The notes under the pieces were generated by a model. That model saw only the letters and a program-made list of their open reading frames with translations. It had not been told where the DNA came from and did no database searches. The translations under genes and the position numbers were made by a program. Below are positions 27,123 to 31,787 of a stretch of DNA of 36,957 nucleotides, piece by piece; the stretch's first letter is position 1; each line of letters opens with the position of its first letter. Location: assembly GCA_022792415.1 (NCBI GenBank), contig JAAWAY010000060.1:1-36957 (forward strand), written 5' to 3'. This stretch comes from Eggerthellaceae bacterium (GTDB taxonomy: Bacteria; Actinomycetota; Coriobacteriia; Coriobacteriales; Eggerthellaceae).

Positions 27123-28586
27123 CTATCGCTCGATGGCGCGATCAACCTCGTCGATGAGCTCCTGCTGGGAATGGACGTCGAGCTTCGCGTAGATATGGCG
27201 CACATGGCTCTTCACGGTGTTGTGGGACACCACGAGGCGCTCCTGGATGACGGGGCTCGTGCGCCCGCGCGCGAGCAGCATGAGTACGTCGAGCTCGCGG
27301 CTCGTGAGCCCGTGCTCGAGCGCCACCTGCTCGCAGGCGCGCTGGAAGGGCGAGCCGCATTCCTCGGAAGACGCCTCGTCGCCTTCGTGCGCCGCAGCGT
27401 CTTCCCCTCCGCCCTCGATCGGCGTGACGGGCACGACTCCCGCAGCCGCCTCATCGAAGCTGAAGCGTCGAAGGGCGACGAACAGGTAGGCCACGAATAT
27501 GAGCGTGATGGTCGCGTTCGCGAAGATGAGCACGTCGGGCGCATCTGCGGAGAGGGTCTGGAGCGAGGCCATGAGAGCTGCCCCGCAGCCGATGCCCACC
27601 CATGAGGCGGCGAACGCCGACGCGGATGTCGTGAGCGCCCCCAGGGGGTTGCGTGCGCCGACGACGGCGATGATGTAGTACATGAGCACGGCGAAGCAGT
27701 CCGACCCGCCGCGCAGCAGGATGGCGCTCAGGTGCCCGTTGACGCCGAGGGGACTGGTGGGGAACAGCACCATGGGGAGGCAGAGCAGGCCGGCGAGCGT
27801 CAGCAGCCCCGAGACGGTCTCGAGCGCATCGGCGGAGACCGCCTCGCTGCGCCGGGCGATCCCGATGAGGAGAATGAGGGCGACGGGCAGGAAGCTCAGG
27901 CACGTCTCAAGGGGCGGCAACGGCCCGCTCGAGAGCAGCGCCTCGAAGCCGTAGGCCACGTTGAACAAGAAGATGGTGATGAACACCAGGCTCGAGAGGG
28001 GGAGGAACGAGGAGGGGTTGGTCGCGTCGAGCACGTTGGGGGACTCGTGGCGGCGAATGTCCTCGAGGAGTCCGCTGACGCTGGGCCTGACGAGCACGTA
28101 GGCGGAAACGACGGCGAGGAAGTAGACGATCGATGCCGTGAGCGGGGTGGGGCTCGCGGAGCGAAGCAGCGGCGTCACTGCGTACGCGAGCACGAACGCA
28201 AACGCGATGACCCCCAGGGCCTCGTCGCGGCCCAGGCGGGAGAGCGATGTTCCGATCAGTATGGAGAGCCACACGAGCCCGATGCCCCCGAGCGGGCTTC
28301 CCGCCAGGATGAGGACGGGCTCCTCCCACCGAAGCCCGACGCAGAGCAGGACGAGGCCTGCCGCGAGCAGCGCGAGCAGCGCGACGGACAGGGGACGCTC
28401 CCTCAGCAGCGCGGGATGCAGGTAGGCCCCGAGCGCGATGAGGACGGAGAAGACCGCCCCGCAGAACGTCGACACCTCGCGCGAGAGGGGACAGACCGTG
28501 GCCAGGTCGGGGAAGAGCACCGTGCTCAGGATGGTCGACGCCACCTGGAGCATGGTGAGCGCAGCGCAGATTTGGACCTGCCGCAT
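27123..28586 (-). CDS. Membrane-anchored LuxR-family regulator
   Basis: 487 residues from the ATG at 28586, chosen for the ribosome site AGGAAGGAGG 4 nt upstream (an ATG at 28625 has none). The first about 385 residues contain about 12 hydrophobic helices with few charges (examples: VALLALLAAGLVLLCVGL, VFITIFLFNVAYGFEALL). A Gly/Glu-rich linker leads to a C-terminal LuxR helix-turn-helix (TSRELDVLMLLARGRTSP, VVSHNTVKSHVRHIYAKLD). There is no receiver domain. Regulators with this plan are abundant in Eggerthellaceae and usually sit beside reductase genes. Here it is divergent from the flavoprotein/cytochrome pair, which it likely controls in response to a substrate sensed in the membrane (inference). 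Confidence 0.92.
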   Translation of the reverse strand: MRQVQICAALTMLQVASTILSTVLFPDLATVCPLSREVSTFCGAVFSVLIALGAYLHPALLRERPLSVALLALLAAGLVLLCVGLRWEEPVLILAGSPLGGIGLVWLSILIGTSLSRLGRDEALGVIAFAFVLAYAVTPLLRSASPTPLTASIVYFLAVVSAYVLVRPSVSGLLEDIRRHESPNVLDATNPSSFLPLSSLVFITIFLFNVAYGFEALLSSGPLPPLETCLSFLPVALILLIGIARRSEAVSADALETVSGLLTLAGLLCLPMVLFPTSPLGVNGHLSAILLRGGSDCFAVLMYYIIAVVGARNPLGALTTSASAFAASWVGIGCGAALMASLQTLSADAPDVLIFANATITLIFVAYLFVALRRFSFDEAAAGVVPVTPIEGGGEDAAAHEGDEASSEECGSPFQRACEQVALEHGLTSRELDVLMLLARGRTSPVIQERLVVSHNTVKSHVRHIYAKLDVHSQQELIDEVDRAIER

Positions 28587-28630: not shown

Positions 28631-28730
28631 GGGTGGAAGGCTCGTCACCCCCAGAAGGTGAAACTCATCCATATGGCGGACAAAGCACCAGGTCAAAGCC
28701 GTATTGAAAATCGCACCATGAGGGTGGAGA
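28631..28730. promoter_or_regulatory. Cluster of GGTG/CACC half-sites in the divergent intergenic region
   Basis: Three small dyads are seen: GGGTG/CACCC (28631-28650), CACC/GGTG (28646-28660) and CACC-ATGAG-GGTG (28714-28726). TTGAAA at 28704 is a possible -35. They could bind the divergently encoded LuxR-type regulator; the evidence is only position and symmetry. Confidence 0.3.
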
Positions 28731-28818: not shown

Positions 28819-30525
28819 ATGACCAAAGAAACGAACGCCCGGATGTCCCGACGCAGCTTCCTGGGTTTGGGGGCCCTGGTGGCCGCCGGCTCGGCAGCCG
28901 GCCTGGCAGGGTGCGCGCCGAAGAGCCGTGAGGCGGGACTCGCCGTCGGGGGCGGATCGTCGAGCGCCGCGTCTGCCGGCGCGGCCGATTGGCTCGGCGT
29001 GGAGCCCCAGATCACCGATATCGCGCGTACGGAGGAAACGGATCTGCTCATCATCGGCGCGGGTACGGCTGGCCTGGCTGCCGCGGCGTCGGCGGCCGAC
29101 CTCGGGCTCGACTTCGTGCTGTGCGAGAAGAGCGGCACCGTCCAGGAGACGCGCGAGTACTGGGGCGGCGTCGACACGGGCTATCAGCGCGCAGCGCAGG
29201 TGGAGATCGACCACTTCAAGCTGCTCAACGAGCTGACGCGCTATGCCTCCGGCAAGTGCAGCCAGGATGTCATCAAGATGTGGATAGAGGAGAGCGGCGA
29301 GGCGATGGACTGGCTCGAGCCCCTCATGGCCGAGACCGGGAAGCCCTGCGTCCTTGAAGTCCACTCCGACCATCCCACGGGCGGAACCGACTACTACGTG
29401 CCCGTCCTGCAGCATATCTGGGTCACCCCCTACGCCCCGCCCACGCGCAACGACGTCCTCGCGACCCACATCGAGCAGCTCGGCAATCCCGCGCGCTTCA
29501 ATCACGAGATGGTGAGGCTCGTCCATGATGACGGCGCGGTAACCGGTGCCATCTTCGACACTGATGAGGGATATGTGCAGATCAACGCGAAGAACACGCT
29601 CATCGCGACGGGCGGCTACCCCGCCAACCCCGCTATGATGAGCGCGCTCTCCCCGCAGGCGCTCTCCGTGTGCACCGCCAGCAGCTTCGCGCCGACCAAC
29701 ACGGGCGACGGCATCAGGGCCGCCCTCTGGGCCGGCGCCACCAAGGATCCCGAGGCCGCTCCCATGATCTTCGATCGCGGCTCGGTGGCCCCCGGCGTCG
29801 ACTGCGGGTACGTGGGCGAGGGCGATGGGCGCATCCTCCCCGGCACCATCTTCCAGGAGAACATCGGCAGCCAGCCGTTCATGAAGGTGAACCGGCACGG
29901 AAGACGCTTCGTGAACGAGTCGATGCCCTACGATTTCATGTGCAACGCCGCAGGCCAGCAACCCGGCGGCGTCTGGTGCCAGGTGTTCGACGCGAACGCC
30001 CCCGAGGACATCCTGCGCTTCGACACCATCGGTTGCTCGGGCTTCGCCAAGCAGATGATGGCGGTCGGCATGCCCATCGACGAGTTCTGCGAGGCATCCA
30101 TGGCCCAGGGCATCATGGCGAAGGCCGATACCATCGAGGAGCTTGCGGACGCGCTCGGCTTCGTCGGTGACGACAAGGAGGCCTTCCTCGCCCAGGTCGA
30201 TCGCTACAACGCGCAGTTCGACGCCCAGGCAGACGACGACTTCGGCAAGGAGCCCTATCGCCTGTCCGCCATCCGGCAGGCGCCCTTCTACGGATGCTGG
30301 TTCGGCGGCACGCTGCTCACCACCCTCGACGGCCTGCGCATCAACGGCCACTGCCAGGTGCTTGACGCCGAGGATGAGGTCATTCCCGGCCTCTACGCGG
30401 CCGGAGACGCGTCAGGCAGCTTCTTCAGCGGAAACTATCCGGAGTACCTGGTGGGCGTGGCATGCGGCCGCTCCACCACCCAGGGACGCCACGTGGCGCG
30501 CTACCTGGCCGGCGAGATCTCCTAA
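28819..30525 (+). CDS. Tat-exported FAD-dependent fumarate-reductase-like flavoprotein
   Basis: 568 residues, ATG at 28819 with GAGGAGGGA upstream. The signal has a twin-arginine motif SRRSFLGLG (R11, R12) and then LAGC with C32, so it may be both Tat-exported and lipidated. The FAD_binding_2 domain starts with LLIIGAGTAGLAAAA (G80, G82, G85), followed by EKSG. Family motifs FMKVNRHGRRFVNES, GGTLLTTLDGLRING and the C-terminal IPGLYAAGDASGSFF are present. The NYPEYLVGVACGRSTTQG ending is typical of the large reductase families of gut Coriobacteriia. It presumably reduces an organic acceptor outside the membrane with electrons from the cytochrome encoded next; the substrate is not determinable. 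Confidence 0.92.
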   Translation: MTKETNARMSRRSFLGLGALVAAGSAAGLAGCAPKSREAGLAVGGGSSSAASAGAADWLGVEPQITDIARTEETDLLIIGAGTAGLAAAASAADLGLDFVLCEKSGTVQETREYWGGVDTGYQRAAQVEIDHFKLLNELTRYASGKCSQDVIKMWIEESGEAMDWLEPLMAETGKPCVLEVHSDHPTGGTDYYVPVLQHIWVTPYAPPTRNDVLATHIEQLGNPARFNHEMVRLVHDDGAVTGAIFDTDEGYVQINAKNTLIATGGYPANPAMMSALSPQALSVCTASSFAPTNTGDGIRAALWAGATKDPEAAPMIFDRGSVAPGVDCGYVGEGDGRILPGTIFQENIGSQPFMKVNRHGRRFVNESMPYDFMCNAAGQQPGGVWCQVFDANAPEDILRFDTIGCSGFAKQMMAVGMPIDEFCEASMAQGIMAKADTIEELADALGFVGDDKEAFLAQVDRYNAQFDAQADDDFGKEPYRLSAIRQAPFYGCWFGGTLLTTLDGLRINGHCQVLDAEDEVIPGLYAAGDASGSFFSGNYPEYLVGVACGRSTTQGRHVARYLAGEIS

Positions 30526-30536
30526 GGAGGCGACCC

Positions 30537-31256
30537 ATGAGTGATCCCAAGATGACGAACCCGGACAACGACCGGCCTGCCGGAGAGGCGCCGGCCTCCG
30601 AAAGCTCGCCGCGACGCCCCGCGGCGCGCCGGCGCCGGGTGATGGCGGCGGCGGTGGTGGCGCTCGTGCTGGTGGCAGCCGGGGCGGGTTTTTGGGTCTG
30701 GCATGAGCAGCCGGGATTCTGCAATGCCATCTGCCACAACCCGATGGATCCCTATCTGCCCACCTACGAGGCGGAGCCGGGCCAGCCGAGCGTCGACAAG
30801 TGGGGCAACGAGGTGCAGGATGCGGCTGGCATGATGGCGGCCGCGCATCGTGCCCAGAACGACGACACCTGCCTGAGCTGCCATGTGCCGACGCTGGGGG
30901 AGCAGGTATCCGAGGGTCTGGCCTGGGTGGCGGGGAACTACTATGACCCGCTTGATGAGCGCTCCGTCACCGACCTCACGGCTGCGCGCGGCGTGGCGGG
31001 CGACGAGTTCTGCCTGAACGAGGCGTGCCATGACCTGACCCGTCCCGAGTTGGTGGAGCTGACGGCGGATCGCGCGTTCAACCCGCATGTGTCCCAGCAT
31101 GACGAGTACGCCTGCTCCGATTGCCACAAGGCCCACCGCGCCTCGGTCATGATCTGCGCGCAGTGCCACACCGAGGCCGAGGTTCCTGCCGGGTGGATAC
31201 AGACCGTCGATGATGCGCAGCTGATGAAGCCCATTTCCGTCCCCGACGCCGCCTAG
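30537..31256 (+). CDS. Membrane-anchored multiheme cytochrome c (NapC/NrfH-like)
   Basis: 239 residues, ATG 11 bp after the flavoprotein stop with AAGGAGG. One N-terminal membrane helix (about 35-55, after an Arg-rich stretch) anchors an external domain with five possible haem sites: C62-x3-C66-H67, C112-x2-C115-H116, C159-x4-C164-H165, C193-x2-C196-H197, C207-x2-C210-H211. The first and third have non-standard spacing. FCNAICHNPMDPY at the start resembles the first haem of NrfH/NapC proteins. It most likely takes electrons from menaquinol and passes them to the flavoprotein. The pair forms a respiratory reductase operon ending at the terminator at 31311. Confidence 0.92.
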   Translation: MSDPKMTNPDNDRPAGEAPASESSPRRPAARRRRVMAAAVVALVLVAAGAGFWVWHEQPGFCNAICHNPMDPYLPTYEAEPGQPSVDKWGNEVQDAAGMMAAAHRAQNDDTCLSCHVPTLGEQVSEGLAWVAGNYYDPLDERSVTDLTAARGVAGDEFCLNEACHDLTRPELVELTADRAFNPHVSQHDEYACSDCHKAHRASVMICAQCHTEAEVPAGWIQTVDDAQLMKPISVPDAA

Positions 31257-31310
31257 CGGCCCGGTATTGGGACGCGGGGGCCGGCCGCCGCGCGATTGCG
31301 CCCTCCACTG

Positions 31311-31345
31311 GCGCCCCATCCCCACGCCGGGGGTGGGGCGTTTTC
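31311..31345 (+). terminator. Rho-independent terminator of the reductase operon
   Basis: CGCCCCATCCCC pairs with GGGGGTGGGGCG (12 bp, one G-T pair) around ACGCC, followed by TTTT. Confidence 0.85.
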
Positions 31346-31367
31346 CGCGCTCAGGGGTGATGTGCCA

Positions 31368-31411
31368 AGAAAAAGCCCCCTGAACTGCGAAAACGCATGG
31401 TTCAGAGGGCT
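31368..31411 (-). terminator. Rho-independent terminator of tmRNA
   Basis: On the minus strand AGCCCTCTGAAC pairs with GTTCAGGGGGCT (with inner TGCG/CGCA and a TTTT loop), followed by a T-run. It starts 9 nt after the CCA end of tmRNA. Confidence 0.9.
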
Positions 31412-31419
31412 AATCCAAC

Positions 31420-31787
31420 TGGTGGAGGCGCGGAGAGTCGAACTCCGGTCCATACTAGACGATCCATGAGGCGCTACAGGCTTAGTCGGCGATCAGGGTT
31501 CGGGGCGGGTCGGTCCGCCGACCGACGTCATCGTCCCTAGTCGGTTCAGTCTTAGCCTCGGCCATACCGGCTACGTGCCGAGGAGCATTCCCCTAGGTTG
31601 ACACCGCGCCCGGAGCGGGGACTATCCGGGGTTGGCGGCCAGGCGCGATTAAGCAGCCATGGCGAGCGCCGGAGCGCTCTGAGTGTGATTCTTGCCAATT
31701 AACTTGACGGTACCCCTGTTTAACGTGGCGAGGAGACCACGACCTGCTCCTCATCTCAGGCCTACCATGTCGAAACCAGTCGCCCCC
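31420..31787 (-). ncRNA. ssrA: Transfer-messenger RNA (tmRNA)
   Basis: 368 nt. The 5' end GGGGGCGACTGGTTTCGACA and 3' end GTTCGACTCTCC...CGCCTCCACCA form the tRNA-like domain; the acceptor stem GGGGGCG pairs with CGCCTCC and CCA is encoded. The tag frame is at 31649-31696: resume codon GGC, peptide GKNHTQSAPALAMAA, then TAA. The ALAMAA end is a protease-recognition degron of the usual kind. It is a one-piece (not permuted) tmRNA. Works with SmpB (25898). Confidence 0.97.

Follow-up and report, generated by a model that had tools for sequence, protein, structure and literature searches.

A flavoprotein–cytochrome gene pair with a divergent LuxR-type regulator in an Adlercreutzia-type genome: a candidate respiratory module of the Cgr kind

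Dozens of orphan reductases of the respiratory type are found in Eggerthellaceae, and those characterised so far have dietary, host and drug molecules as their substrates. Little et al. (2024) is reportedly the main paper on such gut respiratory reductases. The locus described here, in which a flavoprotein gene is followed by a multihaem cytochrome gene, raises the question of what the reductase acts on and whether the genes around it serve it alone. The window is the whole stretch of DNA analysed, 36,957 nt from an Adlercreutzia-type genome (2.39 Mb in 234 contigs, 77% complete). The reductase is common to Adlercreutzia, Slackia and Eggerthella lenta, and it has kept an apparently private regulator and a short operator-like dyad.

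The components that the first-pass annotation had read from the sequence were upheld. It had proposed a Tat flavoprotein with a possible lipid anchor, and both the arginine pair at residues 11-12 and the lipobox cysteine C32 are invariant in 25/25 aligned sequences. The adjoining membrane multihaem cytochrome has one helix and five haem motifs and is encoded 11 nt downstream of the flavoprotein gene. The regulator is divergent, multi-TM and LuxR-type (PF00196 GerE, 51.4 bits, C-terminal, minus strand). As for a terminator, a strong hairpin follows the pair, although it is absent from the output of a consensus terminator scan: the 57-nt stretch 31296-31352 has a folding energy of -34.6 kcal/mol, where shuffles give -23.3 (z -4.06), and only four T follow the G+C-rich part of the 33-nt hairpin at 31310-31342. 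Since reading frames, haem motifs and regulator are conserved across genera, these features are not due to chance. Good ribosome-binding sites (GAGGAGGGATC before the flavoprotein ATG 28819 and AAGGAGGCGACCC before the cytochrome ATG 30537) and the short gap make it very likely that the two genes form one operon. An inverted repeat recognised by eye at 31373-31410, just 3' of the tmRNA gene on the tmRNA strand, is perhaps the terminator of that gene.

Table 1. Features of the reductase locus, in window coordinates.
Feature	Position	Strand	Remarks
LuxR-type regulator gene, divergent	27123..28586	-	ATG 28586, 487 aa
Putative operator dyad TCACCCCCAGAAGGTGA	28645..28661	.	conserved across orthologous gaps
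Second putative operator element AGGGTGG	28721..28727	.	conserved spacing from dyad
Flavoprotein gene (PF00890, predicted catalytic subunit)	28819..30525	+	ATG 28819, 568 aa
Cytochrome gene (Cgr1-like, predicted electron donor)	30537..31256	+	ATG 30537, 239 aa
Terminator-like hairpin downstream of cytochrome gene	31310..31342	+	folding z -4.06 (57-nt stretch)
tmRNA gene	31420-31787	opposite to flavoprotein/cytochrome pair	next after hairpin

The flavoprotein scores 157.6 bits with PF00890 (cut-off 20.4), and its sequence indicates that it is probably Tat-exported and lipid-anchored. Tyr371, Asp372 and Tyr540 are as invariant as the export signals in the 25-sequence alignment, which comprises the window protein, 14 orthologues (63-83% identity) and 10 paralogues (48-57%); Tyr371-Asp372 and GNYPEY are its signature motifs. 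Among named orthologues, those of Eggerthellaceae MAG ABMPRH_67_1 (83%) and A. faecimuris (78%) are followed by those of Slackia faecicanis, S. equolifaciens, S. isoflavoniconvertens, a Slackia MAG and an Eggerthellaceae MAG (64-68%). G050, a genome of the same genus as the host, holds the orthologue, and a further fragment (76%, in G091) lies outside the set of 19 orthologous loci, window included, that is used below.

The best NCBIfam model for the flavoprotein is vinyl phenol reductase VprA (NF053717), at 165.4 bits against a cut-off of 600, and it is also the top model for the E. lenta orthologue (G070:C1:557836-559515) and for one FMN-fused Lachnospiraceae relative. VprA is not known to have Tat export or a cytochrome partner. 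The flavocytochrome c fumarate reductase model TIGR01813 gives 122.8 bits, below its cut-off of 285.45. Identity to E. lenta Cgr2, whose published closest homologues are <28% identical, is 25.7% over 544 aligned positions; the flavoprotein is thus not close to Cgr2, which has Trp at the position of Tyr371. The Cgr2 used was that of genome G070, treated as E. lenta of the DSM 2243 type because the protein has the published start and Y333, Y532 and G536 at their published numbers. More distant relatives (48-49%) in two Lachnospiraceae MAGs begin with a Tat-like sequence, share Tyr371 and Tyr540, and are fused to an FMN-binding domain. No multihaem ORF was seen beside them, one of the two contigs ending 430 bases after the gene. 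The EsxPYD and NYPEY motifs recur in these FMN-fused proteins, so the chemistry of the catalytic domain seems to be preserved despite a different electron input.

The first-pass annotation had noted kinship with fumarate and urocanate reductases and suggested a comparison with characterised enzymes by structure prediction. The kinship is seen in the fold. The flavoprotein model (pLDDT 81.4; residues 1-56 and 185-191 not confident) matched UrdA 6t86 (Z 36.0, rmsd 2.6 over 441), fumarate reductase 1qo8 (Z 34.9, rmsd 4.0 over 441), ketosteroid dehydrogenase 7p18 (Z 33.9, rmsd 3.4 over 444) and cyclohexanone dehydrogenase 8am3 (Z 33.2, rmsd 3.2 over 447). For this predicted structure, Z scores of 33-36 establish a shared fold and do not separate substrate classes, so that the comparison chooses none.

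The kinship does not extend to the active site. In sequence alignments, Arg402 of flavocytochrome c3 corresponds to Tyr371 and His504/505 to Leu500/Thr501, and Tyr371 is also the counterpart of the tyrosine engineered into the R402Y mutant of that enzyme (1jrz). The arginine of the carboxylate-binding loop, which we take to be Arg544 in flavocytochrome c3 numbering, falls on Tyr543 in a profile alignment with a gap over 540-542, and whichever register holds, no arginine lies between residues 530 and 550 of the flavoprotein. According to passages in PMC10882135, reductases of urocanate and fumarate strictly conserve the first catalytic arginine and cannot work without it; they also equate Arg411 of urocanate reductase with Arg401/402 of flavocytochrome c3; the Arg411 position, too, is Tyr371 in the flavoprotein. 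Fumarate and urocanate are therefore unlikely substrates, given the tyrosine in place of the catalytic arginine and Leu and Thr in place of the two histidines. UrdA and flavocytochrome c3 differ further in having a fused haem or FMN domain, whereas the flavoprotein of the window is accompanied by a separate cytochrome chain.

Our tentative best guess at the substrate, drawn from the missing carboxylate-binding residues and the weak VprA score, is an alkene that is neutral, phenolic or keto-conjugated, resembling a vinylphenol or an enone. A reductase of carboxylate enoates (cinnamate, acrylate, itaconate or similar), binding the acid in another way and using tyrosine as proton donor, would agree with UrdA and flavocytochrome c3 being the top matches by both Z and Foldseek E-value, and with the E. 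lenta reductases crdC-D, presumably of the same superfamily, which passages of PMC13060105 name for cinnamic acid metabolism. We consider it rather unlikely, since the substitutions at Arg402, His504 and His505, the stretch 530-550 devoid of arginine and the essential role of the catalytic arginine in the known fumarate and urocanate enzymes (PMC10882135) all count against it.

The ketosteroid and cyclohexanone dehydrogenase structures align almost as well (Z 33-34), as they would if the enzyme worked oxidatively, as a dehydrogenase of that kind whose cytochrome carried electrons to the quinone pool. Tyr-type active sites are also typical of ketosteroid dehydrogenases. The family of the flavoprotein, on the other hand, is one of strict gut anaerobes. 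Cgr1/Cgr2, the best-studied pair of this architecture, reduces its substrate, according to passages of PMC5953540, and an oxidative direction is accordingly quite improbable. Reduction of an alkene remains the direction that we prefer.

The cytochrome resembles Cgr1 closely. It has a single hydrophobic helix near residues 35-57 and haem motifs in the order CX3CH, CX2CH, CX4CH, CX2CH and CX2CH, the combination of one membrane helix and haem motifs by which Cgr1 is recognised; all five motifs, and His104, 184, 188 and 200, are invariant in 15/15 aligned sequences. BLAST aligns it with E. lenta Cgr1 at 61% identity over 203 aa. The Cgr1 model NF051471 gives 332.7 bits, 7 short of its cut-off of 340, against 392.9 for E. 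lenta Cgr1. Its top-scoring matches in the PDB fall on the flavocytochrome c3 haem domain, with E 0.002 at best. The structure model is poor (pLDDT 59.7, pTM 0.34). Two matches to cytochrome c assembly families above the Pfam cut-off were found in the host genome. The flavoprotein is not Cgr2, the cytochrome falls narrowly outside the Cgr1 equivalog, and the residue comparisons speak against the known fumarate/urocanate type, as far as sequence can decide.

Whether the pair is dedicated, as had been proposed, received a divided answer. A cytochrome gene adjoins the orthologous reductase gene in three of the 19 loci (the window, G059 and G050), or 3/18 assessable ones, as the S. faecicanis locus (L020) ends 348 bases downstream of the reductase. 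E. lenta is among the negatives, as are two named species of Slackia. All 17 genomes with a full-length orthologue of at least 64% identity hold at least two Cgr1-like cytochromes, and the host genome holds ten, six or more of which have a flavoprotein next to them on their contig. As 15/18 orthologues lack a neighbouring cytochrome, yet every such genome holds at least two, donors encoded elsewhere must work there. Both counts fit a cytochrome that is a general quinol-oxidising hub, next to this reductase by chance and serving others too, a reading that we hold to be fairly unlikely in view of the inheritance of such pairs.

Pairing was followed in the four genomes that were fully scored for PF00890 (G000, G050, G059 and E. 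lenta G070). Eight of eight full-length PF00890 matches adjoin a cytochrome in G059 (10 cytochromes in total), and four of six in G050 (6 in total). E. lenta has 64 PF00890 matches (E 1e-8; two in one frame) and four Cgr1-like cytochromes, two of which lie beside a flavoprotein, so that most of its reductases must share donors or use others. Where flavoproteins of these genomes are orthologous (≥67%), their cytochromes are reciprocal best matches in 13/13 testable pairs; a fourteenth pair, at a contig end, is outside this count. The comparison covers cytochromes beside a flavoprotein, leaving out orphans and one frame-broken G050 flavoprotein, and the E. lenta share is three flavoproteins and two cytochromes. 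In a tree that includes orphan cytochromes, the three partners of the window-type reductase form one clade (98/92); 8 of the 45 rows, which are probably neighbouring multihaem ORFs, make up one long-branch group that was kept out of the interpretation. The match is looser in the reverse direction: some reciprocal best matches of E. lenta Cgr1 (57-59%) are cytochromes that accompany reductases without relation to Cgr2. Both the 13 conserved pairs and the single partner clade speak against a hub and indicate, at the level of sequence, that reductase and cytochrome are inherited together in the Adlercreutzia lineage. The dedicated pair therefore stands within that lineage and not across orthologues at large: set beside an adjacency of 3/18, it makes one-to-one wiring a property of the lineage rather than of the enzyme. 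Separately, one Cgr1-like cytochrome of the E. lenta type genome (L078 6165-8508) lies beside another multihaem protein and ORFs that read as cytochrome-c-assembly-like, and it may function as a subunit of the NrfH type or as a general hub.

The regulator has about twelve hydrophobic stretches (hydropathy window, overlaps merged by eye) and likely starts at ATG 28586 rather than at TTG 28625, to which the ORF can be extended. Ten to twelve transmembrane helices and a C-terminal GerE domain define the 10-12-TM LuxR regulators, and the window protein shows both features. In passages of PMC9734109, DadR, HcdR and CadR have the same composition and likewise lie beside a reductase; their neighbour is a molybdenum catechol dehydroxylase, whereas that of the window regulator is a flavin reductase. 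All 19 orthologous loci have a divergent multi-TM ORF. A LuxR-type domain was seen in 17 of them, nine by Pfam (the window, E. lenta and seven others) and eight by motif; at L012 and L023 the TM part alone was seen. By BLAST, 12 of the 18 other loci match the window regulator at E 1e-60 or better, a count in which a wrong ORF was compared at L014 and L017. At L014 a transposase-like ORF lies between regulator and reductase. At L082 8902-10161 (G040), an ORF that reads as transposase-like separates the LuxR gene from the flavoprotein gene and the dyad described below is absent from the 260 nt upstream; this reductase may have lost its regulation.

The divergent gap between regulator and flavoprotein genes contains the dyad TCACCCNCNGAAGGYGA (28645-28661). 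The pattern TCACC-N7-[GA]G[CT][GT]A was found in this gap in 18/19 orthologues against a mean of 0.02/19 in shuffles (200 dinucleotide shuffles of 260 nt upstream), a contrast flattered by the pattern having been written after the sequences were viewed. A second element, rGGGTGr, lies 76-79 nt from the dyad in 14/19. When one mismatch was allowed, TCACCCNCNGAAGGYGA occurred just once per genome in the four genomes searched, each time at this locus; its reversed control gave 0, 0, 2 and 2. A wider dyad pattern, drawn from these loci, has one match in 7/8 further genomes, again always at this locus, and its reversed control none; in the eighth, which has no match, the site falls outside the pattern. 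Patterns of such length would occur about once per genome or less by expectation. Within the window alone and with up to two mismatches, the single match is unremarkable, as 21/100 shuffles had one. Because the position is conserved and a second site is lacking, there is no sign of a larger regulon, and regulation of the reductase unit looks private. The dyad is accordingly a putative operator, by its conservation.

Related arrangements occur among the paralogues. In the next paralogue tier (13 loci), TCACCC and CGGTGA lie 90 nt apart in five loci, a compact dyad occurs in two, and six have another or no such arrangement. No dyad was found within 300 nt upstream of cgr2 and cac4. If the spacing of TCACC/GGTGA half-sites is specific to clades, sequence could serve to assign each operator to its regulator. 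An RNA element, in which the outer TCACCC/GGGTGA arms could pair, was considered and rejected: a two-sided change is seen in one of ten predicted pairs, and among the outer-arm pairs in 14 sequences five never vary and the sixth varies only between U-A and U-G. The one Rfam match in the region scored 20.2 bits, where the gathering score is 65.3. The dyad region is taken as a DNA element. Among the matches listed, literature searches brought up no title dealing with this enzyme or with operators that TM-LuxR proteins read, a search by six locus tags near the estimated site of the E. lenta orthologue returned only a DadR paper, and a keyword search of the main text of PMC9734109 found no operator, inverted-repeat or binding-site motif for these proteins.

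Taken together, we favour, with modest confidence, a module of the Cgr kind for anaerobic respiration, induced by its substrate and reducing an organic acceptor. The reading draws on the Cgr1-like cytochrome, the cgr2-cgr1 gene order, co-inheritance, and the conserved regulator and dyad. In such a module, electrons would pass from the quinol pool to the cytochrome and from there to FAD, on the outer side of the membrane; FADH- would then reduce a carbon-carbon double bond of the acceptor, Tyr371 donating the proton. The 12-TM domain of the LuxR protein would sense the acceptor or a similar molecule and activate the operon. Electron route and induction are argued by analogy with related families: passages of PMC5953540 propose the route from quinol through cytochrome to FAD for Cgr1/Cgr2, and passages of PMC9734109 report that the LuxR proteins DadR, HcdR and CadR activate neighbouring dehydroxylases upon induction by substrate. 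The E. lenta Cgr system also shares a flavoprotein followed by a Cgr1-type cytochrome, Tat export and a nearby multi-TM regulator (PMC9734109 and PMC5953540). Counting against the module are the 26% identity to Cgr2, the VprA score far below cut-off, the undiscriminating Z scores, the 15/18 orthologues without an adjoining cytochrome, the loose reverse match of Cgr1 and an operator recognised by conservation only.

A joint reading, to which we give even chances, combines clade-specific spacing of TCACC/GGTGA operators with two wiring plans in Eggerthellaceae: one-to-one in Adlercreutzia-type genomes, where one cytochrome per reductase is inherited as a unit, and shared in E. lenta, where few cytochromes serve dozens of reductases. 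The contrast between one-to-one and shared cytochromes makes it testable whether a reductase needs a particular electron donor. A reporter on the operator region would turn the substrate question into a screen, and E. lenta has genetics.

Two further observations concern the surroundings of the regulator. In the E. lenta type genome, an old-yellow-enzyme gene (L076 6007-7068, PF00724 Oxidored_FMN) is convergent to the regulator gene, and in two other genomes similar ORFs (L083 11085-12227 and L084 4040-5116, the likeness being N-terminal) lie near the regulator, close to an ORF that reads as leucyl-tRNA-synthetase-like. This neighbour was considered as a clue to the substrate and set aside, as it was seen in E. 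lenta, G066 and G003 and at none of the other orthologous loci; the PF00724 family search itself covered the E. lenta gene. In genus g5, four of the five orthologues (L021, L023, L024 and L025) have a compact near-palindrome, TCACCTCAGAGAGGTGA or TCACCTCAGAAGGGTGA, 137-159 nt upstream of the flavoprotein gene and lack the distal element, and the transmembrane part of their regulators is unlike that of the window; the fifth, L012, is of the window type. In this genus, the half-site seems to have outlasted an exchange of the regulator.
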